The notes below the pieces were generated by a model. The model was not told the origin of the DNA, did no database searches, and saw nothing but the letters and a program-made list of their open reading frames with translations. DNA of 24,042 nt from a virus, in IMG/VR virus record IMGVR_UViG_3300044295_000220, positions 1-24,042 of that record. The stretch is one strand, 5' to 3'. Position 1 is the stretch's first letter, and each line of letters opens with the position of its first letter. Made by a program: the position numbers and the translations under genes. Of this stretch, positions 4,130 to 24,042 are shown one piece after another.

Positions 4130-5549
4130 AATCGTCCTTTCAGGTTTGGTATTTTCGGAAGATTATGCTCGGAAAACCTTACCATTCCTAAAGGACGAAT
4201 ATTTTGAGACCAACTACTCCCGTATCATCTTTGGTATAATCAACTCTTACTTTCTTAAGTACAATCGAACTCCAACTAAAGAAGTTCTAGATATTGAGTT
4301 ACAAGCCAAAGGTATACAGCTTTCACAAGATGAGTATGGTAAAGCTCAAAGTACAGTTAAGAACCTAGAAGTAGGGGACCACGTAAAATCAGATTGGTTG
4401 ATTGATACAACAGAAAGATGGTGTAAGGACAGGGCATTATTTATTGCCCTGTCCAAGTCTATTAAGATATCCAAAGAAGACAGTGGATCACTGTCTATTG
4501 GGGCCATTCCCAAGATATTACAGGAAGCCTTAGCAGTATCGTTTGATACCAAGATTGGTCATGATTACTTTCTCAATTGGCAGCACCAATATGAGTATTA
4601 CCATCTTGAAGAATATAAGATTCCATTTGATCTTGAATTTCTAAACGAGATTACCAAAGGCGGGGTTTCCAGAAAGACACTCAATATCTTACTTGCTCCA
4701 ACTGGAGTCGGTAAGACAATGTTCATGTGTCATTTCGCGACCTCAAATCTCTTGAGAGGAAAGAACGTCCTATACATCACTCTTGAAATGGCAGAAGAGA
4801 GGATACGTGAGCGTATTGATGCTAATATTTTGGACGTTAAGTTACATGATCTAGAGCACCTAACCAAAGAGTCATACGAAAGAAAGATTAAACAGGCGCG
4901 AGAGAAAACGCAAGGCAACTTAATTATCCGTGAGTATCCTGCAACAACTGTGTCTGTGTTAGCGTTTCGTCATCTCATTGACGAATTGAAGCTAAAGAAA
5001 AACTTTGTTCCTGATATAGTCTATATCGACTATCTAAATCTTTGTGCATCAGCCCGAGTGAAAAAGGGTAGCACGGGATCGTATGATTATATTAAATCAA
5101 TTGCCGAAGAGATTAGAGGGTTTGCGGTAGAGTATAACATTCCTATTATAAGTGCTACACAAACTAATAGAGGAGGGTTCAATAATCTTGACATTGAATT
5201 AACAGACACTAGCGAATCTATCGGACTTCCTGCAACTGTTGATTTGATGCTTGGTATCATGGTTGACGATAATTTAAGAAACATGAACCAAGTCTTATTT
5301 AAACAGCTTAAGAACCGATACGAAGACGAAAACAAGAGGCGGTATTTCGTTATAGGCGTCGATAGACCTAAAATGAGATGCTTTGATACTGAACAGCCTG
5401 CTAATGAAAAGATTACACATGATGTGCCTGTATTTGATAATACTCAAGTCGGAACAGAAATGAACGATGATGAGGATAATATATTTTCAGGACTTGATAG
5501 TGTCGGTATTTCAAAAAAAGCAAAGGAAATATTCAAAGAGTTTAAATAA
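4116..5549 (+). CDS. 41: Replicative DNA helicase (gp41/DnaB-like)
   Basis: A 477-residue DnaB-family helicase of the size of T4 gp41. The N-terminal 1-150 region is helical, as in the DnaB/gp41 primase-binding domain. The RecA-like core follows: Walker A LLAPTGVGKT at 192-201, YITLEM at 220-225 (catalytic Glu region, motif H1a), Walker B DIVYIDYLNL at 300-309 with D305, the SATQTNR sensor at 346-352, and DTSESIGLP at 364-372 (motif H4). The C-terminus from about 430 is acidic and probably flexible. In T4 systems gp41 forms the 5'-3' hexameric helicase at the fork and pairs with gp61 primase, also present here at 11915-12928. The gene starts inside the end of the HNH gene with no strong ribosome-binding site, suggesting translational coupling. 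Two strong inverted repeats lie within its coding sequence (4427-4496). Confidence 0.95.
   Translation: MNIDEIVLSGLVFSEDYARKTLPFLKDEYFETNYSRIIFGIINSYFLKYNRTPTKEVLDIELQAKGIQLSQDEYGKAQSTVKNLEVGDHVKSDWLIDTTERWCKDRALFIALSKSIKISKEDSGSLSIGAIPKILQEALAVSFDTKIGHDYFLNWQHQYEYYHLEEYKIPFDLEFLNEITKGGVSRKTLNILLAPTGVGKTMFMCHFATSNLLRGKNVLYITLEMAEERIRERIDANILDVKLHDLEHLTKESYERKIKQAREKTQGNLIIREYPATTVSVLAFRHLIDELKLKKNFVPDIVYIDYLNLCASARVKKGSTGSYDYIKSIAEEIRGFAVEYNIPIISATQTNRGGFNNLDIELTDTSESIGLPATVDLMLGIMVDDNLRNMNQVLFKQLKNRYEDENKRRYFVIGVDRPKMRCFDTEQPANEKITHDVPVFDNTQVGTEMNDDEDNIFSGLDSVGISKKAKEIFKEFK
4427..4496 (+). repeat. Two adjacent intragenic hairpins inside gene 41
   Basis: The first is a 10-bp perfect, GC-rich stem: arms 4427-4436 (GGACAGGGCA) and 4445-4454, loop TTATTTAT. 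The second is an 8-bp perfect stem: arms 4478-4485 (AGACAGTG) and 4489-4496, loop GAT. They are 23 bases apart in the segment linking the helicase N-terminal domain to the ATPase core. Neither is followed by a T-run, so they are not intrinsic terminators. A role in mRNA stability, cleavage or translational pausing is possible but unproven. Confidence 0.6.
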
Positions 5550-5558
5550 TGGAGAAGT

Positions 5559-6872
5559 GTGGCCACTAGTGGAAAGGCAAAGTTCGAAAAGTATTTTCAA
5601 GGAAAGCATATAGAGACCAAAATACGAAACGGCAAAGGACCTGCCAAAGTATATTTGAATTGTCAGACTAAAGTTTTTACTTGTGAATTAATCGAAGGCA
5701 CCGAGATTTTTGTTTTGCCTGTTAATGAATATAGCCCTAAATACAAAATTATGTACGATGGGAAAATTGGATATGTGCCCGAAAAATATATTACCAAGCC
5801 CAAGAAAGACAGGGGAGCTACTGAAATGCTGGGTATCTATAGTGCAGAGTTGGCTAAATGTGGAACCGAAGCGTCTCTTAATTTTGGAGATGGTATTACT
5901 ACCGTAAGACAGTTCTACAATGCTAAAGATATTAAAACCTCTATCATTACAGCCCTTGCCTCAAACCAAAATGTATGTAATGAAATCACAAAGACAGTAG
6001 ACGATATTCTTTCTTATACACCATCTTCTTTTATATGGGATGCTTCTATTGATCGATATGAAATAGATGAATTAGGAAAGTATATTGGGGAGCTTCTATT
6101 TGGGTTGATCATTATGAAGCAAGGGGAGTTTGATGGTAATAAGGTTGTTGGAATTGCTGTCCCCGATGATCCAACATACAATGGTCTAGACTCATTCATT
6201 TATTGTGAGTCTAATAAGACTATTGGTGTTTCTAGTAAATACGGTGTAGGGGCCAAGGCCTCATTCTTCACTAACATTCTTGATAAGGTATGTGATCAAA
6301 GACATATTATGCCAGAGTGTGTTCTTAAACACGTGTGTGAGAGATACAATCCATTTGGTAATTCGCGCGAATTTATCTATGAATATGGGGTAAAGAACAT
6401 TCTAGGGTTGAACATGGACAACCCATACAAGCTATACAAGGCGATCAAGGCAGGACAGGCGGTCCCTGTAAAGGATGATTTAATGTCTGTTATGATTGCT
6501 ATTGATGACATGATCTTAAATGAACCTAAAGAAAACGCGGCTGCTATCATAACAGCAACAAAGATACGTCAGGAACTTCCTTATTCGATAACGTCTTTCT
6601 TTTGTCGTAAGATCGCAGAACAATTAAACTCTTGTGAAGTATCGATGGTATTCCTAAAAAATGCTTTACAAAATAATGAGATTTATCAGGTGCATTTAGA
6701 TCAAAACAAATGGGCTAAAGGCGAGATAAGATTTGATGCATATAAGATAAAATCATCTACTTTAAAAATCGTTGGAAATAAATCAGCTATCAATGACCTT
6801 TCGTGTAGTCAAGGAATGCTGAATTATGAATTAAGAACTTTACCAGAAGATAAGTTTGAAGTGACAGTATAA
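5559..6872 (+). CDS. Uncharacterised protein with SH3-like N-terminus and possible PD-(D/E)XK-like core
   Basis: A 437-residue protein starting at GTG 5559, with GGAG at 5551-5554 upstream. Residues about 38-80 read as a bacterial SH3-like barrel: GTEIFVLPVN, then YKIMYDGKIGYVPEKYI, the usual closing strand and signature. The middle resembles a restriction-like nuclease core: a helix KYIGELLFGL (E178), then LDSFIYCES (D211), a strand IGVSSKYGVGAKAS with K227 and a glycine-rich turn. In active PD-(D/E)XK enzymes the residue two before Lys is usually Glu or Asp; here it is Ser225, so catalysis is doubtful. The rest is helical with no recognised motif. It directly follows gp41 and is closed by a terminator overlapping its stop, so it is the last gene of the replication operon. 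Function unknown; the fold assignments are by eye. Confidence 0.75.
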   Translation: MATSGKAKFEKYFQGKHIETKIRNGKGPAKVYLNCQTKVFTCELIEGTEIFVLPVNEYSPKYKIMYDGKIGYVPEKYITKPKKDRGATEMLGIYSAELAKCGTEASLNFGDGITTVRQFYNAKDIKTSIITALASNQNVCNEITKTVDDILSYTPSSFIWDASIDRYEIDELGKYIGELLFGLIIMKQGEFDGNKVVGIAVPDDPTYNGLDSFIYCESNKTIGVSSKYGVGAKASFFTNILDKVCDQRHIMPECVLKHVCERYNPFGNSREFIYEYGVKNILGLNMDNPYKLYKAIKAGQAVPVKDDLMSVMIAIDDMILNEPKENAAAIITATKIRQELPYSITSFFCRKIAEQLNSCEVSMVFLKNALQNNEIYQVHLDQNKWAKGEIRFDAYKIKSSTLKIVGNKSAINDLSCSQGMLNYELRTLPEDKFEVTV

Positions 6873-9445: not shown

Positions 9446-9453
9446 TATAAATA
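9446..9453 (+). promoter_or_regulatory. T4-type late promoter (TATAAATA)
   Basis: An exact match to the T4 late-promoter element TATAAATA lies in the 45-base intergenic gap after 9440, 40 bases before the start of a virion-type gene. T4-type late transcription uses gp55 (sigma) and gp33 with the sliding clamp. Position, exact sequence and downstream structural gene agree; expected chance matches in a window of this composition are one to two. Confidence 0.75.
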
Positions 9454-9485
9454 ACAAACAATAATAATTTAGAGGGAATACTTTT

Positions 9486-10100
9486 ATGGCCTTATGGGGT
9501 TCTATAGACAGAGCAAATAGCTCTCCGATTTTCACAGCGGCTCAGTTTAATTTAGCTGCTAATTCAGATAACAGAGATGCATTATTCACTAACTCAACTG
9601 CCGATGCTTTTATTACGGGTAAGACAGTTGGTGTATTTGGTGTTAATGACAATGAGCAAGCGGCTTCATTAGGTAAGTTTCCTCATACAGGATGGATTAT
9701 CAAGACAACGGGTTCTGGCGGTCGCGCGGGTCGTGTGACGTATGAATGCCTTGTTGCAGGTGGTTTTTCTGTTGACGCTAACGTGTCAGGTACGCCTAAC
9801 AACGCAATCGTTATCTCCATTCATCCTACCAGCAAATCAGTTAACGATAACTTATCAACTACGTTCTCTATTAATGCTGTTACAGCCCCTCCTGGTGGTA
9901 CTATTACCTATCTATGGCAGGCTAATACAGGAAGTGGATTCGCCAACCTTACAAACGCTGGCGTGTATAGCAACGTTACTACAGCAACATTGTCTATCTC
10001 TAACGTCCATAGCTTAAACGCAGTTTCATATCAGTGCTTCCTAAGATCAACGGGCGCTGTTAACGTAACATCAAACTCAGCTACACTAACAGTCGTCTAA
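9486..10100 (+). CDS. Virion/surface protein with C-terminal Ig-like domain
   Basis: A 204-residue protein in two parts. Residues 1-95 (MALWGSIDRANSSPIF start, then ALFTNSTADAFITGKTVGVFGV and GWIIKTTGSGGRAGRVTYECLVA) match a module I know from T4-like marine and cyanophage structural proteins. Residues about 108-204 form an immunoglobulin-like domain: TYLWQ holds the core Trp, LSISNVHSLNAVSYQC carries the usual F-strand Tyr-x-Cys pattern, and SATLTVV is the final strand. Ig domains on T4-type virions (for example Hoc) often bind host surfaces or mucus glycans. The start is supported by GAGGG at 9472-9476 and a late promoter at 9446. The exact virion location is unknown. Confidence 0.75.
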   Translation: MALWGSIDRANSSPIFTAAQFNLAANSDNRDALFTNSTADAFITGKTVGVFGVNDNEQAASLGKFPHTGWIIKTTGSGGRAGRVTYECLVAGGFSVDANVSGTPNNAIVISIHPTSKSVNDNLSTTFSINAVTAPPGGTITYLWQANTGSGFANLTNAGVYSNVTTATLSISNVHSLNAVSYQCFLRSTGAVNVTSNSATLTVV

Positions 10101-15065: not shown

Positions 15066-15101
15066 TTACATTCCAAATTTTTGAGTTTTAAAAGGATTGA
15101 G

Positions 15102-17402
15102 ATGGTTGCTACTGATTTACTTGTTACAAAAAGAAACGGCGAGCTTGAAGCGTTTGATTTAGAGAAGTTTCATAGAGTTTGTCAATGGTCGTGTGAAGGT
15201 ATTACGGGAGTCTCCCCTTCTACTCTTGAATTGAAAACTGGAATCCAATTTCATGATAAGATTAAGACTACGTTTATCATGGATACTACAATCAAAGCCG
15301 CCGCAGATTTGATTTCTGAGGATACTCCTAATTATCAATTCGTAGCGTCTCGTCTTGTTAATTTCAAGCTTCGCAAAGAAGTTTATAATAACCATATTCC
15401 ACCATCTCTTTATGACCATGTAAAGAGTGTCGTCAAACTAGGCTATTATGATTCTCAGCTTCTAGAGTGGTTCTCGGAAGCTGATTTCACAACTATGGAA
15501 AACTTTATCAATCATGATAGAGATTTCAACATCGTGTATGTTGGAATGGAACAGTGGAGAGGAAAGTATCTAGTTAAGAATAGAGTAACAAAGCAGCTAT
15601 TTGAAACTCCTCAAATGGCTTATATGCTTATTGCTGCTACGCTATTCCATGAATATCCAAAAGAGACACGTCTAAAGTGGATCAAGAATTATTATGATGC
15701 AATCTCTCAATTTGATATTTCATTGCCTACTCCTATTCTTGCTGGCGTTCGGACACCACAACGTCAGTATGCTTCTTGTGTTCTTGTATCTAGTGACGAT
15801 AGTTTGGATTCGATAAATGCCACATCATCAGCCATTGTCAAATACGCGGCGCAAAAGGCGGGTCTCGGTATCGGGGCTTCTCGTATCCGTGCTATTAACT
15901 CTCCTGTTCGTAACGGTGATACTGCCCATACTGGCGTTATCCCGTTTATTAAATACTTTCAAGCGGCTCTTAAGTCATGTGCGCAAGGTGGTATTAGAAT
16001 GTCTTCGGGCACTCTCAACCTTCTTTGCTGGCATTATGAAATAGAGGACTTGGTTGTCTTAAAAAACAACAAGGGTATTGAAGAAAACAGAGCAAGGCAC
16101 CTTGACTATTGCATACATTTCAATAAGCTATTCTATGAGCGGCTGATTGAGGGTAAGAATGTTTCCTTGTTCTCGCCTCATGATGTACCAGAGGTTTACG
16201 AGGCCTTTTACTCGGGCCATCCCGACAAGTTCAAGGAGTTATATGAGAAGGCAGAACGCAACAATAAGATTCGTCGCAAGACGATTTCCGCTATGGACTT
16301 GTTTTCCAAGTTCTTACAAGAGAGAAAGGATACAGGCCGCATCTATCTAATGAATGTTGATCATGCTAATAGCCATAGCTCATTCAACATTCCCGTGGAA
16401 ATGACTAACCTTTGTGTTGAGATAACCCTACCAACCAAACCTTTAAGGACCATAGACGATGAAGACGCTGAAATTGCTACTTGCATCCTTTCAGCTATTA
16501 ATTGGGGTCGTATCCGTGAACCTAGGGATTTTGAACGGGTCTGCACTTTGGCTGTTAGGGGGCTTGATTCTATTATTGATTACCAATCATATCCTGTCAA
16601 CGCAGCGAGAAATTTCACTCTCAATCGTAGGGCACTTGGGATTGGTATTATTAACTTCGCTTATTGGCTTGCTCGTAACGACTTGGATTATGAGAATATA
16701 GATACAGAAGGGTTAACCAAAATACATGAATACTCAGAGGCATGGTCATACTATTTGATTAAAGCCTCGGTTGACTTAGCAAAAGAGAAAGGGGCGTGCA
16801 ATAAAGCAGAGGACACCAAATACTATAGTGGCTTGCTACCTATTGATACTTACAAGTCTGATATTGATGATCTAGTCAAACCTGTATATCATATGGATTG
16901 GAAGCTTTTGAGAAAGGACTTGGCTCAATACGGGATACGTAATTCTACGTTAATGGCAATTATGCCTGCTGAATCATCAGCCCAAATCTCTAATTCAACA
17001 AATGGTATTGAACCTCCTAGAGCATTAGTCTCAATTAAGCAATCCAGAGATGGAGTCTTAAGGCAGGTTGTTCCTGAGTTTAGGAGAATGAAGAATAAGT
17101 ATAACCTCTTATGGGATCAAAAAACATGCGATGGTTATATTAAGATTTGTGCTGTTCTACAAAAGTTCATAGACCAGTCTATTAGTATGAATATCTCGTA
17201 TAACCCAAAGTTTTACGAGGAAGAGAAACTTCCAATGTCTGAGCTATTCAGACACTTGCTAATGTGCTATAGATACGGGATCAAGACATTGTATTACTGT
17301 AACGTGGCAGATCAAGCAGGAGAATGGGAAGAAAAGCCGAAAGAACTTCCTAAACAGGAAGCCCCCGTAATCGAAGAAGATTGTGACTCTTGTAAAATCT
17401 AA
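15102..17402 (+). CDS. nrdA: Ribonucleoside-diphosphate reductase class Ia, large subunit NrdA
   Basis: ATG 15102 is preferred (AAAGGA at 15091-15096); an in-frame TTG at 15081 lacks a ribosome-binding site. The 766-residue protein opens with an ATP-cone (VTKRNGELEAFDLEKFHRVC), followed by the ten-stranded barrel. Hallmarks include YASCVLVSS (first redox Cys), the finger-loop MTNLCVEI with the thiyl Cys at 438 and N436/E440, TCILSAINW (second redox Cys), and MPAESSAQISNSTNGIEPP near the substrate phosphate site. The C-terminus CDSCKI gives the shuttle Cys pair that exchanges with thioredoxin or glutaredoxin. Whole-length similarity to T4 NrdA is obvious. With NrdB (21709-22818) it converts NDPs to dNDPs; its partner gene is 4.3 kb away, separated by tRNAs and tail-fibre genes. 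Confidence 0.96.
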   Translation: MVATDLLVTKRNGELEAFDLEKFHRVCQWSCEGITGVSPSTLELKTGIQFHDKIKTTFIMDTTIKAAADLISEDTPNYQFVASRLVNFKLRKEVYNNHIPPSLYDHVKSVVKLGYYDSQLLEWFSEADFTTMENFINHDRDFNIVYVGMEQWRGKYLVKNRVTKQLFETPQMAYMLIAATLFHEYPKETRLKWIKNYYDAISQFDISLPTPILAGVRTPQRQYASCVLVSSDDSLDSINATSSAIVKYAAQKAGLGIGASRIRAINSPVRNGDTAHTGVIPFIKYFQAALKSCAQGGIRMSSGTLNLLCWHYEIEDLVVLKNNKGIEENRARHLDYCIHFNKLFYERLIEGKNVSLFSPHDVPEVYEAFYSGHPDKFKELYEKAERNNKIRRKTISAMDLFSKFLQERKDTGRIYLMNVDHANSHSSFNIPVEMTNLCVEITLPTKPLRTIDDEDAEIATCILSAINWGRIREPRDFERVCTLAVRGLDSIIDYQSYPVNAARNFTLNRRALGIGIINFAYWLARNDLDYENIDTEGLTKIHEYSEAWSYYLIKASVDLAKEKGACNKAEDTKYYSGLLPIDTYKSDIDDLVKPVYHMDWKLLRKDLAQYGIRNSTLMAIMPAESSAQISNSTNGIEPPRALVSIKQSRDGVLRQVVPEFRRMKNKYNLLWDQKTCDGYIKICAVLQKFIDQSISMNISYNPKFYEEEKLPMSELFRHLLMCYRYGIKTLYYCNVADQAGEWEEKPKELPKQEAPVIEEDCDSCKI

Positions 17403-17417
17403 ATATGGAGTGTTGTT

Positions 17418-17669
17418 ATGGATACGTTGGGTAAATTAGAACATAAAAAAGGACCGCAGAAAATGCTCATTTTGACTCTTAGTAAATCAGGAAAGCCAAT
17501 CTATCTTTCTAGAAGCCATATTATCGGCTGTCAGGCCAGCGATGACCCAAATAAGATTGGTGTTACAGTCGTGTATACTACATTCCAGAGCTTCCCTTTT
17601 GAGGTAAAGGAAGAGTGCAATTATATCATGAACCTTCTAAGTGACTCTTTTGGGAATGTTAAGAAGTAA
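17418..17669 (+). CDS. Small hypothetical protein (83 aa)
   Basis: ATG 17418 follows TATGGAG (17404-17410), a good ribosome-binding site directly after the nrdA stop. The product has alternating hydrophobic strands (MLILTLSKSGKPIYLSRSHI, IGVTVVYTTFQ) and a C-terminal helix, compatible with a small beta-rich binding protein. No family recognised. It shares its stop/start base with the next gene (TAATG). Co-transcription with nrdA suggests an accessory role, but this is not shown. Confidence 0.6.
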   Translation: MDTLGKLEHKKGPQKMLILTLSKSGKPIYLSRSHIIGCQASDDPNKIGVTVVYTTFQSFPFEVKEECNYIMNLLSDSFGNVKK

Positions 17670-17953
17670 TGTTAGACTTGTCTATTGGGCTGTTAAATCC
17701 TTTCGAGTATGCGTCGAAAGACCGTAAGTTTGTCGATTGGAATCCAGACCTAGTTGACCATAAGAAGATTCGTCTGATGCTTGGAACTCTACCCCAAGCA
17801 TCGGACGTATTCAGGCTTAGATTTTCATCTAAGTTCTGGGGTAATGCCAAGACTGGTATTATTCTACAGTTATCAGTTTTACAGTTCGTGTTTGAATTCA
17901 GATTCTATGATAACAGGCATTTCGACCTACTAAACAACGTCTGGAAAGAATAA
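17669..17953 (+). CDS. Small hypothetical protein (94 aa) containing strong intragenic hairpins
   Basis: It starts on the stop of the previous gene. The 94-residue product (SIGLLNPFEYASKDRKFVDW, then FRLRFSSKFWGN, then LQLSVLQFVFEFRFYD) has amphipathic strands and an aromatic-rich C-terminal half; no family recognised. The coding DNA holds an unusual 14-bp hairpin at 17771-17807 and a 7-bp one at 17700-17720. It ends six bases before the tRNA-Gln, so the transcript continues into the tRNA. Confidence 0.6.
   Translation: MLDLSIGLLNPFEYASKDRKFVDWNPDLVDHKKIRLMLGTLPQASDVFRLRFSSKFWGNAKTGIILQLSVLQFVFEFRFYDNRHFDLLNNVWKE
17771..17807 (+). repeat. Long intragenic hairpin (14-bp stem)
   Basis: Arms 17771-17784 (CGTCTGATGCTTGG) and 17794-17807 pair over 14 positions with a single G-U wobble; the loop is nine bases (17785-17793). 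This is the longest stem found in the window. No T-run follows, so it is not a standard terminator. It lies in codons for residues about 35-47 of the small protein, about 150 bases upstream of tRNA-Gln. Confidence 0.75.
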
Positions 17954-17959
17954 GTTTAT

Positions 17960-18035
17960 TGGGGTTTAGCCTAGCGGACTAAGGCTATGGATTTTGATTC
18001 CATGATCGCAGGTTCGAATCCTGCAACCCCTACCA
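17960..18035 (+). tRNA. tRNA-Gln (anticodon TTG), CCA encoded
   Basis: A 76-base cloverleaf. Acceptor 17960-17966 (TGGGGTT) pairs with 18025-18031 (AACCCCT) except for a U1-U72 mismatch; D-stem GCCT/AGGC; anticodon stem ATGGA/TCCAT with loop TTTTGAT, anticodon TTG at 17994-17996; T-stem GCAGG/CCTGC with loop TTCGAAT; discriminator A and an encoded CCA. A weak or open 1-72 pair is characteristic of tRNA-Gln and favours glutaminyl-tRNA synthetase recognition. It reads CAA (and possibly CAG) codons. Confidence 0.93.
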
Positions 18036-18041
18036 TTTTAA

Positions 18042-18092
18042 GCAATCTTGAACCTCTAAATATGCACACAAAGCAATGTTTAGGAAGATTGC
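18042..18092 (+). promoter_or_regulatory. Inverted repeat able to sequester the tail-fibre gene ribosome-binding site
   Basis: GCAATCTT at 18042-18049 is perfectly complementary to AAGATTGC at 18085-18092. The right arm covers most of the AGGAAG ribosome-binding site (18082-18087) of the gene starting at 18102. A candidate late promoter (18055-18062) lies inside the 35-base loop. Transcripts reading through from upstream would contain both arms and hide the site; transcripts from the internal promoter would lack the left arm. Confidence 0.55.
18055..18062 (+). promoter_or_regulatory. Candidate late promoter variant (TCTAAATA)
   Basis: TCTAAATA matches the T4 late element at six of eight bases with the TAAATA core intact. 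It lies in the intergenic gap after tRNA-Gln, 47 bases before a tail-fibre-type gene. The same octamer occurs at 23217-23224, 48 bases before the Hsp20-family gene. The predicted start near 18068 would give a short leader containing the ribosome-binding site. Confidence 0.45.
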
Positions 18093-18101
18093 AAAAAATA
18101 A

Positions 18102-19118
18102 ATGTCAAAAATATCTAATATAGCTGTAACTAATTCAGCAAGTTCTAATGATAGAATACTGTTACTTGTTAACACAAGTGGTACAGCAAATCTAAGAACT
18201 ATTACTACAGAAAATCTATTTACTACTATTGCCACAACTGCTAATACTACAGTAGCAGGTGTAATAAAAGTCGGTAATGGACTTTCTATTAATGGTAATG
18301 GGTTCTTATATTCTACTGTAGGAACCGCTAATACTACTGTAGCGGGTGTAATAAAGGTAGGAGATGGGCTTGCCATTGACGGTAACGGTTTTCTAACCGT
18401 TGATGGTCCTGCTGGTTTTTCTAACGGTAGTGATATTCTTGTTGATACAATTACCATCGGTAATGTCACATCTTATTTTACAACATTATCAGTTAACCAG
18501 ACTACAGGAGCCTTTACGATCCACAGCGCCCAAGATGGCGGATGGATAAATGAATGGAAAATGATCCATGAGGACGGGGTTCCACGGTTCTATTTACCAT
18601 TAAATGGCTCAATTAATAATGAAGATGGTTCGCATTATCTTACAAAGGCAATGTCGGACATAATTCCTGTAACCACGGAACAGAGTTTAGGAAGCCCTGA
18701 CCTTCCATGGAAGCATTTATATATTTCGAACAACACCATTTATATTAATGGTATTCCATTAACTATTTCTTCAACTAATGAAGTTCTAGTTAATGGTCAT
18801 GCAACGTATTCACCAATGGGTAGCGTAACTAATAATCAGTTATGTTTCTCTAAAGAAATAGTTGCAAGCGGTAATTTAAAGCTAAGCGGAAATCTATTAG
18901 ACGGGTTAGAACGCCCATTATTAAATACTAATGCGCTAGATATAAATACAGATGGTGGAACTTCGGTATCTGTGTTTTCGGCTTATGATTTACAGTTTGA
19001 TGGTGGCTCTGTGAGCACAATATTTGGCTTGTACGAAGCAGGTTTAGACGGTGGTTGTTCATATAATAACCTAATATCTTCACAATTTTTAGACGGTGGC
19101 AGCGCCTTAGTCCAATAA
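18102..19118 (+). CDS. Tail fibre / minor structural protein with internal repeats
   Basis: A 338-residue, Asn/Thr/Ser/Gly-rich, beta-type protein. Two 24-residue repeats occur at 46-69 and 75-98 (TANTTVAGVIKVGNGLSI and TANTTVAGVIKVGDGLAI, each ending in GNGFL), a pattern common in T4-like fibre shafts. LGSPDLPWKHLYISNNTIYI at about 203-222 is a phage fibre motif often found before a chaperone or receptor domain. The last 60 residues carry four DGG motifs at 14-18-residue intervals (TDGGT, FDGGS, LDGGC, LDGGS). AGGAAG at 18082-18087 precedes the ATG by 14 bases. It is probably a host-recognition or baseplate-attached fibre protein; the partner is the next gene. Confidence 0.78.
   Translation: MSKISNIAVTNSASSNDRILLLVNTSGTANLRTITTENLFTTIATTANTTVAGVIKVGNGLSINGNGFLYSTVGTANTTVAGVIKVGDGLAIDGNGFLTVDGPAGFSNGSDILVDTITIGNVTSYFTTLSVNQTTGAFTIHSAQDGGWINEWKMIHEDGVPRFYLPLNGSINNEDGSHYLTKAMSDIIPVTTEQSLGSPDLPWKHLYISNNTIYINGIPLTISSTNEVLVNGHATYSPMGSVTNNQLCFSKEIVASGNLKLSGNLLDGLERPLLNTNALDINTDGGTSVSVFSAYDLQFDGGSVSTIFGLYEAGLDGGCSYNNLISSQFLDGGSALVQ
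18237..18395 (+). repeat. Tandem 72-base coding repeat in tail-fibre gene
   Basis: Two in-frame 72-base units, 18237-18308 and 18324-18395, separated by 15 bases, encode near-identical 24-residue segments. They differ mainly at third codon positions, so the protein rather than the DNA sequence has been conserved, which implies an old duplication under selection. Confidence 0.8.
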
Positions 19119-19142
19119 CTAACAGGGGTAAGAAAAATTTAA

Positions 19143-20642
19143 ATGGCAACGAAAATACAGGCTAGAAGAGATACCAGAGCAAATTGGGAGAGTGCTAATC
19201 CAGTTCTCAGTCAAGGTGAACCTGGACTAGAGATTGATACTGGTAGATTTAAGTTTGGTGACGGTACGTCCAAGTACACAGATTTACCTCATGTTGGTTC
19301 GTCACGCAAAAAGATGACTGATGGGTCATTCTGGGGAGTTGAAGAGTTTAACGGGGTCAAAGAGTTTACCTTTACCACTAGAGGCCATAGATGGTTGCCC
19401 GTAATTGCGGCTCAGTCAGGTGAAGGATTGACTTCATTTACTGTTAGCAGCGAGACTTTCCCTGATGTTATAGCCCTATATGCTGCTTATAGCGCAGACG
19501 GGATTGGTAGCATAAGAGTTATGCCTAATAATGATATTAATAATCAGTTAACGATTGATACTATATCATTTGACAATGACCATACATATACCTTTGTCCT
19601 AGATGGAGGAAGTATGGATTTGACTAATGGTACTACTCCTCTTCTAATCATCGCTTGGTGGAGAGGTACTAGATTAGTAATTAATGATATGTATGAACTT
19701 TATAATATGAGGCCTAATGCTACAACATCTAATTCAAACGTAGTTGTGATTGATGCTGGCGGAAGTTCAACCGATTTTGATACGTATCTTATGACAAATC
19801 CTACCAAATGTGCATTGGTGTTTGACGACAAACCACAAGCATGGATTCAGGATGGTCAGCATCTTATTGATGATGAAAGAAAGATTTTATCGGTTACAAA
19901 AAACGACACTCTATACACAATTACATTTGATGGCGAGCCTATTTCTTTAAGAACAGATTATAACCCTTCTGTTAATACGGTTGCGTCTCTTGCTGTTGAG
20001 AATAGCACAATCATTTATGTTAATAGAACATTATATCCTGAGATTTCTGATTGGGTTTATTATTCTGGTGGTACTGTAACCATTGGTGAACAGACTGCAA
20101 GCATTTCTTATATTGATCAATATGAAAACAATAACATTACCTATTATGGTGATAATTGGGTTATCTGGTTAAATAGCCAAGTTACGTGTAATGTGGGCGA
20201 TACTATTACGTTTTCTTATTCTAAGCCTGGGACCGATATTACTTTAGAACTTTATAGACCAAACCATTCTATTGACACTAATGAATACATGTGGTTTAAT
20301 TGGTTGGATGATCTTCCTAAATTACGTAACATTCCTGGTCAAGGTGTAGAAGGTGGTGAAATTACGTTCTTCTGTAAGGTATATCGCCCATATGACAATA
20401 CAGTAGATTATTATATGAATGCTAGATATTTCCATCTAGGTCACTGGTGGGATTATTCTAGAAGACGTGGCCAGCCTAATTTCTGGTTTGGCCGTGACTC
20501 TAATGATACTGTGTTTTATTCATTCGACCAAAATGGAATTACCTTTAAAGAATATCCATATGAAAACGTATCACAAGATATTAAAGTGAGAATTGCATAT
20601 AGTATGAAATTGATGATTGGCGACCACGAATATTGGGATTAA
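19143..20642 (+). CDS. Tail fibre/adhesin with Mtd-type N-terminal domain
   Basis: A 499-residue protein. Residues 1-50 (TKIQARRDTRANWESANPVLSQGEPG, then IDTGRFKFGDGTSKYTDLPH) match the N-terminal domain of major tropism determinant-type and many T4-like fibre proteins (IQxRRDTxxNWxxxNPVLxxGExGxExDTxxxKxGDG). The remainder is beta-rich and aromatic (for example AWWRGTRLVINDMYELYNM and HLGHWWDYSRRRGQPNFWFG), suitable for glycan or surface binding. There is no repeat of a diversity-generating retroelement and no reverse transcriptase in the window. It begins 24 bases after its neighbour and ends just before tRNA-Ala. Candidate receptor-binding protein; the receptor is unknown. Confidence 0.8.
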   Translation: MATKIQARRDTRANWESANPVLSQGEPGLEIDTGRFKFGDGTSKYTDLPHVGSSRKKMTDGSFWGVEEFNGVKEFTFTTRGHRWLPVIAAQSGEGLTSFTVSSETFPDVIALYAAYSADGIGSIRVMPNNDINNQLTIDTISFDNDHTYTFVLDGGSMDLTNGTTPLLIIAWWRGTRLVINDMYELYNMRPNATTSNSNVVVIDAGGSSTDFDTYLMTNPTKCALVFDDKPQAWIQDGQHLIDDERKILSVTKNDTLYTITFDGEPISLRTDYNPSVNTVASLAVENSTIIYVNRTLYPEISDWVYYSGGTVTIGEQTASISYIDQYENNNITYYGDNWVIWLNSQVTCNVGDTITFSYSKPGTDITLELYRPNHSIDTNEYMWFNWLDDLPKLRNIPGQGVEGGEITFFCKVYRPYDNTVDYYMNARYFHLGHWWDYSRRRGQPNFWFGRDSNDTVFYSFDQNGITFKEYPYENVSQDIKVRIAYSMKLMIGDHEYWD

Positions 20643-20647
20643 GATTA

Positions 20648-20724
20648 GGGCTTATAGTTTCAATTGGGAAAATCCTGCCTTTGCACGGCAGAGTTGAGGG
20701 TTCGAATCTCCTCTAGGTCCACCA
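20648..20724 (+). tRNA. tRNA-Ala (anticodon TGC), with bulged T-stem, CCA encoded
   Basis: A 77-base cloverleaf. Acceptor GGGCTTA (20648-20654) pairs with TAGGTCC (20714-20720), including the G3-U70 wobble that is the main alanine identity element. D-stem GTTT/AAAT; anticodon stem CTGCC/GGCAG, loop TTTGCAC, anticodon TGC at 20682-20684; T-loop TTCGAAT. The T-stem GAGGG/CTCCTC needs a one-base bulge (T at 20709). Discriminator A and CCA are encoded. The D-loop has C where A14 is usual. It is probably functional, but these oddities leave a pseudo-tRNA possible. Confidence 0.8.
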
Positions 20725-20735
20725 AATAGAATAGT

Positions 20736-20760
20736 AATTGGCCACATTTCGTGGCCAATT
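20736..20760 (+). terminator. Strong hairpin after tRNA-Ala (terminator or processing site)
   Basis: A 10-bp perfect stem, AATTGGCCAC (20736-20745) with GTGGCCAATT (20751-20760), loop ATTTC. Only three T follow (20759-20761), so intrinsic termination is likely incomplete. Its place between a tRNA 3' end and the ribosome-binding site of the next gene suits termination or protection and processing of the tRNA precursor. Confidence 0.5.
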
Positions 20761-20777
20761 TAGTGAAAGGATATATT

Positions 20778-22818: not shown

Positions 22819-23249
22819 AAAAAGATAAATGGGATTACATTATGGAGGATATAGGACCATGGGTATTGGTCCTTATCCTTGTAGTCTTCTTTTTCTTTTG
22901 TATATTCGCTAATACTCCCGCTCATGCTAAAGGTGGGGCTGGTGGTGGGGGAGGAAGGTCCGTGTCAGTATCCCGTAGCGTTTCAACTTCAAAACCCTCT
23001 ATTCCCAAGCCGCCCCCTTCGGCTTCTATTCCCAAGCCTACACCCAAGCCATCTCCCTCGTCTTCTATTACTTCATTGGCTACAGGAGCCGCTGTAGGGG
23101 CAGTTATTAGCCATTCAACGCCATCATGGGCTAAACCAGCAGAAGCTACAGCTAAAGCGGTACTTAAGCTAGGTAAACGGGCATCAGGGGATTATTCCCC
23201 CTCAGGGATCATAGATTCTAAATATCGTTACGATAAGTTTAATTACTAA
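22815..23249 (+). CDS. Membrane-anchored or secreted low-complexity protein
   Basis: A 144-residue protein, translationally coupled to nrdB (ATGA). Residues 1-14 are charged, 15-32 are a strong hydrophobic segment (PWVLVLILVVFFFFCIFA), and TPAHAKGG at 34-41 looks like a signal-peptidase I site (AHA then KGG). Then come a Gly run, a Ser-rich stretch (VSVSRSVSTS), and a Pro/Lys/Ser repeat in which the DNA TCTATTCCCAAGCC recurs. The segment LATGAAVGAVISHST resembles a short Gly/Ala helix. The C-terminus is basic and aromatic. A periplasmic or outer-surface protein, perhaps superinfection- or lysis-related, is plausible but unproven. Confidence 0.65.
   Translation: MKKDKWDYIMEDIGPWVLVLILVVFFFFCIFANTPAHAKGGAGGGGGRSVSVSRSVSTSKPSIPKPPPSASIPKPTPKPSPSSSITSLATGAAVGAVISHSTPSWAKPAEATAKAVLKLGKRASGDYSPSGIIDSKYRYDKFNY
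23217..23224 (+). promoter_or_regulatory. Candidate late promoter variant (TCTAAATA)
   Basis: This octamer is identical to the one at 18055-18062 and stands 48 bases before the next start, again with the TAAATA core. It lies inside the last codons of the preceding gene, so coding constraint may explain it by chance. Confidence 0.3.
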
Positions 23250-23264
23250 AATTAGGAGTCAAAT

Positions 23265-24042
23265 ATGGCCATTAGTTACGTATTCGATAAGGACCCAAAA
23301 CCAATATATATTGGTTATGATGAAATCGATGCTGACTTAAGAGCAGCTAACGAAGAATTATATCGCCCTGAGTTTGATCCTACAAAGTTTCCGTTATACA
23401 ATATCTTAAAGTTCAAGGATATAGGATTTACTATTCAAATCTATGTTCCTGGCTTTAAGAAGTCGGAATTAGACGTGTCCATTGATGGGGATATACTTAC
23501 CGTTGCTGGTAAGCAACCTCCATTATCGGATGAAGTCATATTCTTCAAGGGTATGGAATTACCAAACGAGTTTAAAAGATCATTCCACTTGTCTGATAAT
23601 GTCAAGGTCGCTAAGGTTAGCCTTGATAGTGGAATTATGTCTATCGAAATATTAAAATTGAATGTTGAACCTAAGCATACTGATATTCCAGTAGACTTTA
23701 ATGATCCATCAACACAAGATTTTGATACTCCTGTTGCGGAAGGTAATACCGCCCCTTTAGTGGTTCCCCCAACACCAAATAATGATGTTGGGGTTGCTAA
23801 TGCAGTGATACCTAGTGATTCTACCCCTGTTGTTGTCCCTTCGATCCCTGTTGTTCCAGAGCCACAACCCGCGCCGTTACCGATTCCAACGCCCGAGCCG
23901 TTACCAGTAGTTGATCAGCCAACCGTCGAAGTAGCTCCAAAGACTGACCCAACGACTCCGTTAGTTGTTGATTCGTCATTACCTCAGAATCAGGTTCTTC
24001 CTGATCCTGTTCCTCAGCCTCAGCCTGAGCCAGTTGTTGTAA
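23265..24042 (+). CDS. Hsp20/alpha-crystallin-family protein with long Pro-rich tail, 3'-truncated by window edge
   Basis: ATG 23265 follows AGGAG (23254-23258). The visible 259 residues stay open to the edge. The alpha-crystallin domain spans about 45-131: FTIQIYVPGFKKSELDVSIDGDILTV (beta strands 2-5 region), FKRSFHLSDNV and the A-x-x-x-x-G-I-M-S-I strand (AKVSLDSGIMSIEI) replacing the usual GVL. T4-like cyanophages commonly encode an Hsp20. What is odd is the C-terminal region from about 145, which is Pro/Val/Gln/Asp-rich with repeated PVVP, PEPQP and PQPQPEP segments and shows no sign of ending. Normal small heat-shock proteins are 140-200 residues with a short IXI tail. A chaperone-like core tethered to a flexible spacer is suggested. 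Confidence 0.8.
   Translation, partial: MAISYVFDKDPKPIYIGYDEIDADLRAANEELYRPEFDPTKFPLYNILKFKDIGFTIQIYVPGFKKSELDVSIDGDILTVAGKQPPLSDEVIFFKGMELPNEFKRSFHLSDNVKVAKVSLDSGIMSIEILKLNVEPKHTDIPVDFNDPSTQDFDTPVAEGNTAPLVVPPTPNNDVGVANAVIPSDSTPVVVPSIPVVPEPQPAPLPIPTPEPLPVVDQPTVEVAPKTDPTTPLVVDSSLPQNQVLPDPVPQPQPEPVVV

Follow-up and report, generated by a model that had tools for sequence, protein, structure and literature searches.

A candidate late promoter nested in a hairpin over the ribosome-binding site of a fibre-type gene in an uncultured T4-like phage

Introduction

Would a fibre-type gene lying behind nrdA and a tRNA gene be translated from RNA that reads through from them, or does its leader hold it silent until late transcription begins? 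The question is raised by a locus in a 24,042-base fragment of IMG/VR record IMGVR_UViG_3300044295_000220, referred to here as the window. In phage T4, the late promoters of e, soc and 49 lie within a hairpin that sequesters the ribosome-binding site (PMC3014915), and the combination of such a hairpin with a late promoter has also been described for the homing endonucleases I-TevI, I-TevII and I-TevIII, for segB, and for mobE of phage Aeh1 (PMC2988022). Among the titles and abstracts of a PMC subset, no description of this device on a fibre gene was found, and mistimed or mis-dosed expression of host-recognition-type genes is rarely studied. A first-pass annotation of the window had proposed T4-type logic for its fibre gene, silent on read-through RNA and open late, and this proposal is supported here by in-silico folds, the promoter variant, T4 controls and homologous genes. 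We consider it likely that the site works as a translational switch of the T4 type, operated by the choice of promoter; a control device familiar from T4 textbooks would thereby reach phages that are uncultured and distant from T4, and genes of the host-recognition type.

Gene order around the hairpin site

The window encodes homologues of UvsX, a gp41-type helicase, DNA primase, NrdA and NrdB, and was therefore placed in the T4 superfamily; all of its main genes are carried on the + strand. None of the late-transcription genes gp55, gp33 and gp45 was seen in the 24-kb fragment, and gp55 is encoded by Caulobacter phage Cr30 and by phage C48C1, both of which are compared below. The hairpin site is located between tRNA-Gln (TTG; 17960-18035, + strand; ARAGORN, Rfam RF00005) and an open reading frame of 338 aa (18102-19118, + strand). 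Upstream on the same strand are nrdA (15081-17402; PHROG 84), two small ORFs and, directly before the site, the tRNA. We take nrdA to be of the early/middle class, as in T4, in which case it would be the source of read-through RNA, and no terminator-like site was found on the + strand from 17400 to 18100.

An in-frame TAA precedes the ATG of the 338-aa reading frame, and position 18102 is therefore its first possible start. The frame had no match in Pfam, PHROG or PDB, and its putative identity as a fibre comes from an N-terminal domain common to fibre-like genes of other T4-like contigs, together with a neighbouring gene bearing an Mtd_N domain, rather than from a curated family match. This second fibre gene (19143-20642, + strand) begins 24 nt downstream of the first and is probably co-transcribed with it. 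Peptide searches found no close relatives of ORF 17669, ORF 18102 or the fibre gene at 19143, a DNA similarity search of the region returned matches to tRNA-Gln only, and in an Rfam scan the tRNA alone exceeded its gathering score. The order of nrdA, tRNA and fibre gene was not found in another phage.

Closer inspection of the surroundings revealed a block comprising tRNA-Gln, the two fibre genes and tRNA-Ala (17960-20724) between nrdA and nrdB. Given that the homologous fibre gene elsewhere sits behind a structural gene and upstream of nrdA, this block resembles a fibre cassette that has been relocated and is flanked by tRNAs. Also noted were very strong inverted repeats within coding sequence, one in ORF 17669 (17770-17840; CGTCTGATGCTTGG/CCAAGCATCGGACG) and one in the helicase gene (4426-4500; GGACAGGGCA/TGCCCTGTCC), as well as a perfect hairpin (AATTGGCCAC/GTGGCCAATT) at 20738-20762, just 3' of tRNA-Ala, with a terminator score on the - strand.

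A predicted composite hairpin pairs the putative Shine-Dalgarno sequence

The leader of the fibre gene contains the perfect 8-bp inverted repeat that had been annotated, with GCAATCTT at 18042-18049 and AAGATTGC at 18085-18092 (+ strand) matching exactly, and the repeat extends to 15-nt arms (87%). Its right arm had been described as covering the putative Shine-Dalgarno (SD) sequence AGGAAG (18082-18087, + strand); this holds for the last three bases, AAG (18085-18087), whereas the AGG is sequestered in a second helix, overlooked in the earlier description, in which 18055-18062 pairs with TGTTTAGG (18077-18084, + strand). The late-promoter octamer TCTAAATA (18055-18062, + strand), previously placed in the loop, is instead one strand of this helix: in the minimum-energy fold of read-through RNA, the 5' strand of the inner helix is exactly the octamer. 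The two helices adjoin directly on their 3' side, while a five-base bulge (18050-18054) separates their 5' strands, and the composite hairpin comprises 19 pairs at -16.8 kcal/mol.

In these folds, which are predicted from thermodynamics and take account of neither proteins nor co-transcriptional folding, the SD is fully paired on read-through RNA (per-base probability of being unpaired at most 0.03), and opening it costs 11.1 kcal/mol as against 1.6 kcal/mol on a late RNA starting near 18068 and missing the 5' strand of the outer helix. Truncation from the 5' end lowers the cost in two steps, to approximately 4.7 kcal/mol once the outer strand has gone and the promoter helix alone remains, and to 1.6 kcal/mol without both strands. 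Since the SD is open at 1.6 kcal/mol for any 5' end from 18057 to 18079, the conclusion is independent of the exact start, and the fold persists on longer RNAs that take in the tRNA and more of the flanks. The spacing from SD to ATG is long, at 14 nt from AGGAAG and 16 nt from AGGA, as it is at several other genes of the window. Because the SD core is short (4-5 bases) and the spacer 14 nt, the open late RNA may be weakly translated.

Other features of the leader were considered and set aside. A mini-ORF on read-through RNA, with its ATG at the end of the octamer (18062) and approximately 19 codons, is without an SD and is missing from late RNA; no intrinsic terminator was called on the + strand at the hairpin site; and four matches in IMG/VR to the exact stem, GCAATCTT-TAAATA-AAGATTGC, have no visible link to the site and were judged to be chance. 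An orthologue with the same stem as 18042-18092 was not found.

The promoter octamer and its counterparts in Aeh1 and Cr30

The octamer is present at 18055-18062 as annotated, and it departs from TATAAATA at a single base, an A to C change at position 2, rather than at the two bases first counted. TATAAATA is the T4 consensus and CTAAATA the late promoter of Aeromonas phage Aeh1, and T4 late transcription starts 13 nt downstream of the octamer's first base (PMC1524935), a rule that places the predicted start of the fibre-gene transcript at 18068 on the + strand. Cr30, the only phage of the reference set to match window ORF 5559-6872, carries four copies of CTAAATA in 150 kb of its sequence, all on the late-gene strand and each immediately preceding a structural gene (gp23, gp22, tail sheath and gp063; 4/4). 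These findings suggest that TCTAAATA is plausibly a late promoter, the C-variant of the Aeh1/Cr30 group.

Comparison of the Cr30 gp063 leader (TCTAAATAAATGCACACAAAGGCA) with that of the window (TCTAAATATGCACACAAAGCAA) revealed that the two share TCTAAATA plus TGCACACAAAG, amounting to 11 further bases. This extended 11-nt string was found in no viral contig of IMG/VR beyond the window and Cr30, and on account of this confinement we treat it as a curiosity, yet one that lends support to the octamer. Cr30 gp063 is itself homologous (32% identity) to window ORF 9486-10100, which probably encodes a structural protein and now stands apart from the fibre gene; a match to the TATAAATA late promoter (9446-9486) precedes this ORF. 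There are several candidate late promoters within the window. One of them, a further copy of TCTAAATA (23217-23265), lies 48 nt ahead of the hsp20 ATG with no SD-hiding hairpin, which indicates that the phage does not provide every late gene of the nrd region with a hairpin.

Accessibility gain and membership of the T4 class

The proposed switch is founded on sequence, on pairing computed in silico and on comparative recurrence. We infer from these the promoter activity, the read-through and the effect on translation, as follows. RNA arriving from the side of nrdA and tRNA-Gln would fold 18042-18092 into an outer and an inner helix of 8 bp each, pairing all of the AGGAAG and leaving the fibre gene (18102-19118) untranslated. 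Late, a gp55-type sigma factor would initiate at TCTAAATA, with a start near 18068, and the resulting RNA, without the 5' strands of both helices, would have an open SD from which the fibre could be made.

Such an arrangement has a computable signature, namely how much more accessible the SD becomes once the RNA begins at a late promoter nested in the hairpin. We defined a score (ddG) as the difference in SD opening cost between read-through RNA and an RNA whose 5' end lies 13 nt past the octamer's first base (the former minus the latter), with gene starts taken from a simple in-house ORF caller rather than from annotation. The signature recovers the T4 controls I-TevII (11.1 kcal/mol), e (9.3) and 49 (6.4), and the fibre site of the window scores 5.5 kcal/mol (4-nt SD core). 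On testable features the site belongs to the T4 e/49/I-Tev class: in silico, the SD is sequestered in a helix on upstream-initiated RNA and the promoter is placed such that late RNA drops the 5' strand of the helix, and the gene is downstream of genes of early/middle class, as assigned from T4, with no terminator between.

In common with T4 e, soc and 49, the SD is sealed on upstream-initiated RNA and the late promoter drops the 5' strand. The window site differs from these in its C-variant promoter, its longer SD-AUG spacing and the whole octamer forming one helix with the SD, and it serves a fibre-type gene rather than the lysozyme or endonuclease VII of e and 49. With the I-Tev genes, segB and mobE it shares an early nrd/td operon setting and an RBS hairpin with a late promoter immediately upstream, and with Aeh1 a CTAAATA-type promoter; those genes, however, are mobile endonucleases, whereas that of the window is structural. 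Aeh1 mobE was sought as a positive control in the stretch from 180 to 220 kb and was not there. Cr30, despite its CTAAATA promoters and the bases common to the gp063 leader, has no strong SD-hiding hairpin at any of its four sites (ddG -1.1 to 2.5), unlike the window.

Homologous fibre genes with their own late promoter

Searching with single proteins returned no relatives of ORF 18102. The accessibility scan led to two contigs in which the next gene begins with its N-terminal domain (MSKISNIAVTNSASSNDRILLLVNTSGTANLRTITT in the window and KKVSELAVTTTLSANDRVVILSNPSSAANTKTIT in contig L006), and a profile search with this domain, in which a closer subset was aligned and the full set was too diverse, identified 24 loci. 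At most of these, 10-22 nt separate the fibre gene from a preceding structural gene with a GGRAGRV-type C-terminus, and such loci have neither a late promoter of their own nor a promoter-nested hairpin. Relatives that lack the hairpin while keeping the gene order, which the first-pass annotation had named as evidence against the switch, were not encountered, the fibre gene of the hairpin-less relatives being that found 10-22 nt behind the structural gene, and this comparison thus favours the switch.

One clade (L006/L119/L122, L016/L123, L036/L124, L118, L120/L121 and L125, some of which are the same contig entered twice) possesses a gap of 30-32 nt that holds AATAAATA, the flank of which pairs with the SD (AAATACTACT...AGGAGTATTT; score 6.1-7.3). 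Clade and window genes alike have the homologous N-terminus and a late promoter nested in an SD hairpin; they differ in that the clade uses AATAAATA and a stem of 7-10 bp with no visible sequence similarity to that of the window, and in that its fibre genes follow a structural gene with a GGRAGRV C-terminus, probably late, in place of nrdA and a tRNA. The clade comprises six distinct 60-nt leaders, or seven with the window, and none of the fibre homologues found to carry a late promoter of their own lacks a nested SD hairpin (7 distinct leaders). Because the two designs share no stem sequence, they appear to be either independent or fully diverged, and would represent two lineages rather than seven events.

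The position of the clade hairpin, 30-32 nt behind a probably late structural gene and not behind an early one, bears on a reading in which the hairpin is a general translational insulator that leaves the dose of the fibre to its own promoter, regardless of whether RNA from upstream is made early or late. This reading has the same mechanism as the switch with another purpose, and the two are not exclusive. Against it, the genes upstream in the window are nrdA and a tRNA, for which early versus late timing suffices, and as an account of this site it seems to us rather unlikely. The switch worked by promoter choice may nonetheless have early versus late timing as only part of its function, given that the upstream gene in the related clade is itself structural. 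In view of the same seal downstream of a structural gene in the clade, the hairpin may in general serve to tie fibre translation to the gene's own promoter, an arrangement that in the window coincides with early silence and late expression. More tentatively, it is possible that T4-like phages broadly use promoter-in-hairpin insulators, beyond lysis and homing genes, in tying fibre and tail synthesis to its own promoter, the design having had more than one origin among homologous fibre genes, with the octamer sometimes serving as the SD-sealing strand.

Chance expectation and less likely readings

Inverted repeats of 8 bp are common in the window (63, compared with 29.5 in shuffled sequence), and among stretches of its GC content the 75-nt fold at the site comes no higher than the top 3.4%. 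The hairpin might therefore have formed by chance in an AT-rich leader and regulate nothing, beside a genuine late promoter, a reading also favoured by the frequency with which 5.5 kcal/mol is reached elsewhere, in 1.2% of 1,500 leader shuffles with octamer and SD held fixed and in 54 of the 4306 control pairs of gene start and pseudo-promoter (1.25%). The combination of elements is rarer than repeat or fold alone. Scores of 5.5 or more occur at 12/190 motif-bearing gene starts versus 54/4306 controls, and at 6/114 after deduplication and exclusion of T4 and fibre genes (Fisher p ~0.016). Furthermore, the architecture is present in all distinct fibre leaders with a late promoter, compared with approximately 6% of motif-bearing genes and 1-2% of controls, and we judge chance to be an unlikely explanation.

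It is less likely still that TCTAAATA is no promoter and that fibre RNA comes only from upstream, with the hairpin either lowering translation or being opened by a ribosome, protein or helicase. In favour of this reading, the octamer also occurs on the opposite strand inside a gene (11506) and in another copy overlapping the nrdA stop (17398). Conversely, CTAAATA is found upstream of late genes in both Cr30 and Aeh1, and the octamer-to-ATG spacing of the fibre gene (47 nt) agrees with those seen at hsp20 (48 nt) and at the sites in Cr30 (36-58 nt). That the hairpin instead belongs to the tRNA-Gln transcript, as a 3'-processing or stability element just after the CCA or as a weak terminator with incidental SD overlap, is highly improbable, for although it begins 7 nt past tRNA-Gln and tRNA-Ala of the window is likewise followed by a hairpin (20738-20762), it has no + strand U-tract or terminator call, a downstream fold ranking in the top 10% accompanies only 15% of 39 tRNAs in T4-like loci, and there is no tRNA ahead of the nested hairpins at T4 e and 49, in C48C1 or in the fibre clade.

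Candidate further cases

The score predicts further cases in metagenomic contigs. High scorers include two SegE GIY-YIG endonucleases and one HNH endonuclease of uncultured T4-like phages, where predicted RBS-sealing hairpins coincide with a late-promoter match (L022:11600-11645, L048:10998-11036 and L002:2214-2265); endonucleases are the kind of gene on which the device is known from T4 and Aeh1 (PMC2988022). The high scorers also include a small ORF and a gene for tail-fibre assembly in phage C48C1, where two nested late-promoter hairpins are predicted (L097:30990-31040 and L099:3040-3096). One, CTCTCTC-TGTCTATAAATAATTATAGAC-TAAAGGAGAGAG, has a ddG of 9.9, and another, CCCTAAG-TTGTATAAATA...TTTATACGCTTAGGG, which lies ahead of the tail-fibre assembly gene, has a ddG of 5.5. 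Elsewhere in C48C1 (117.6 kb), divergent TATAAATA sites overlap on both strands (TATAAATAGTTTAATCGTATTTATA; L098:17582-17625) between two divergent structural genes.
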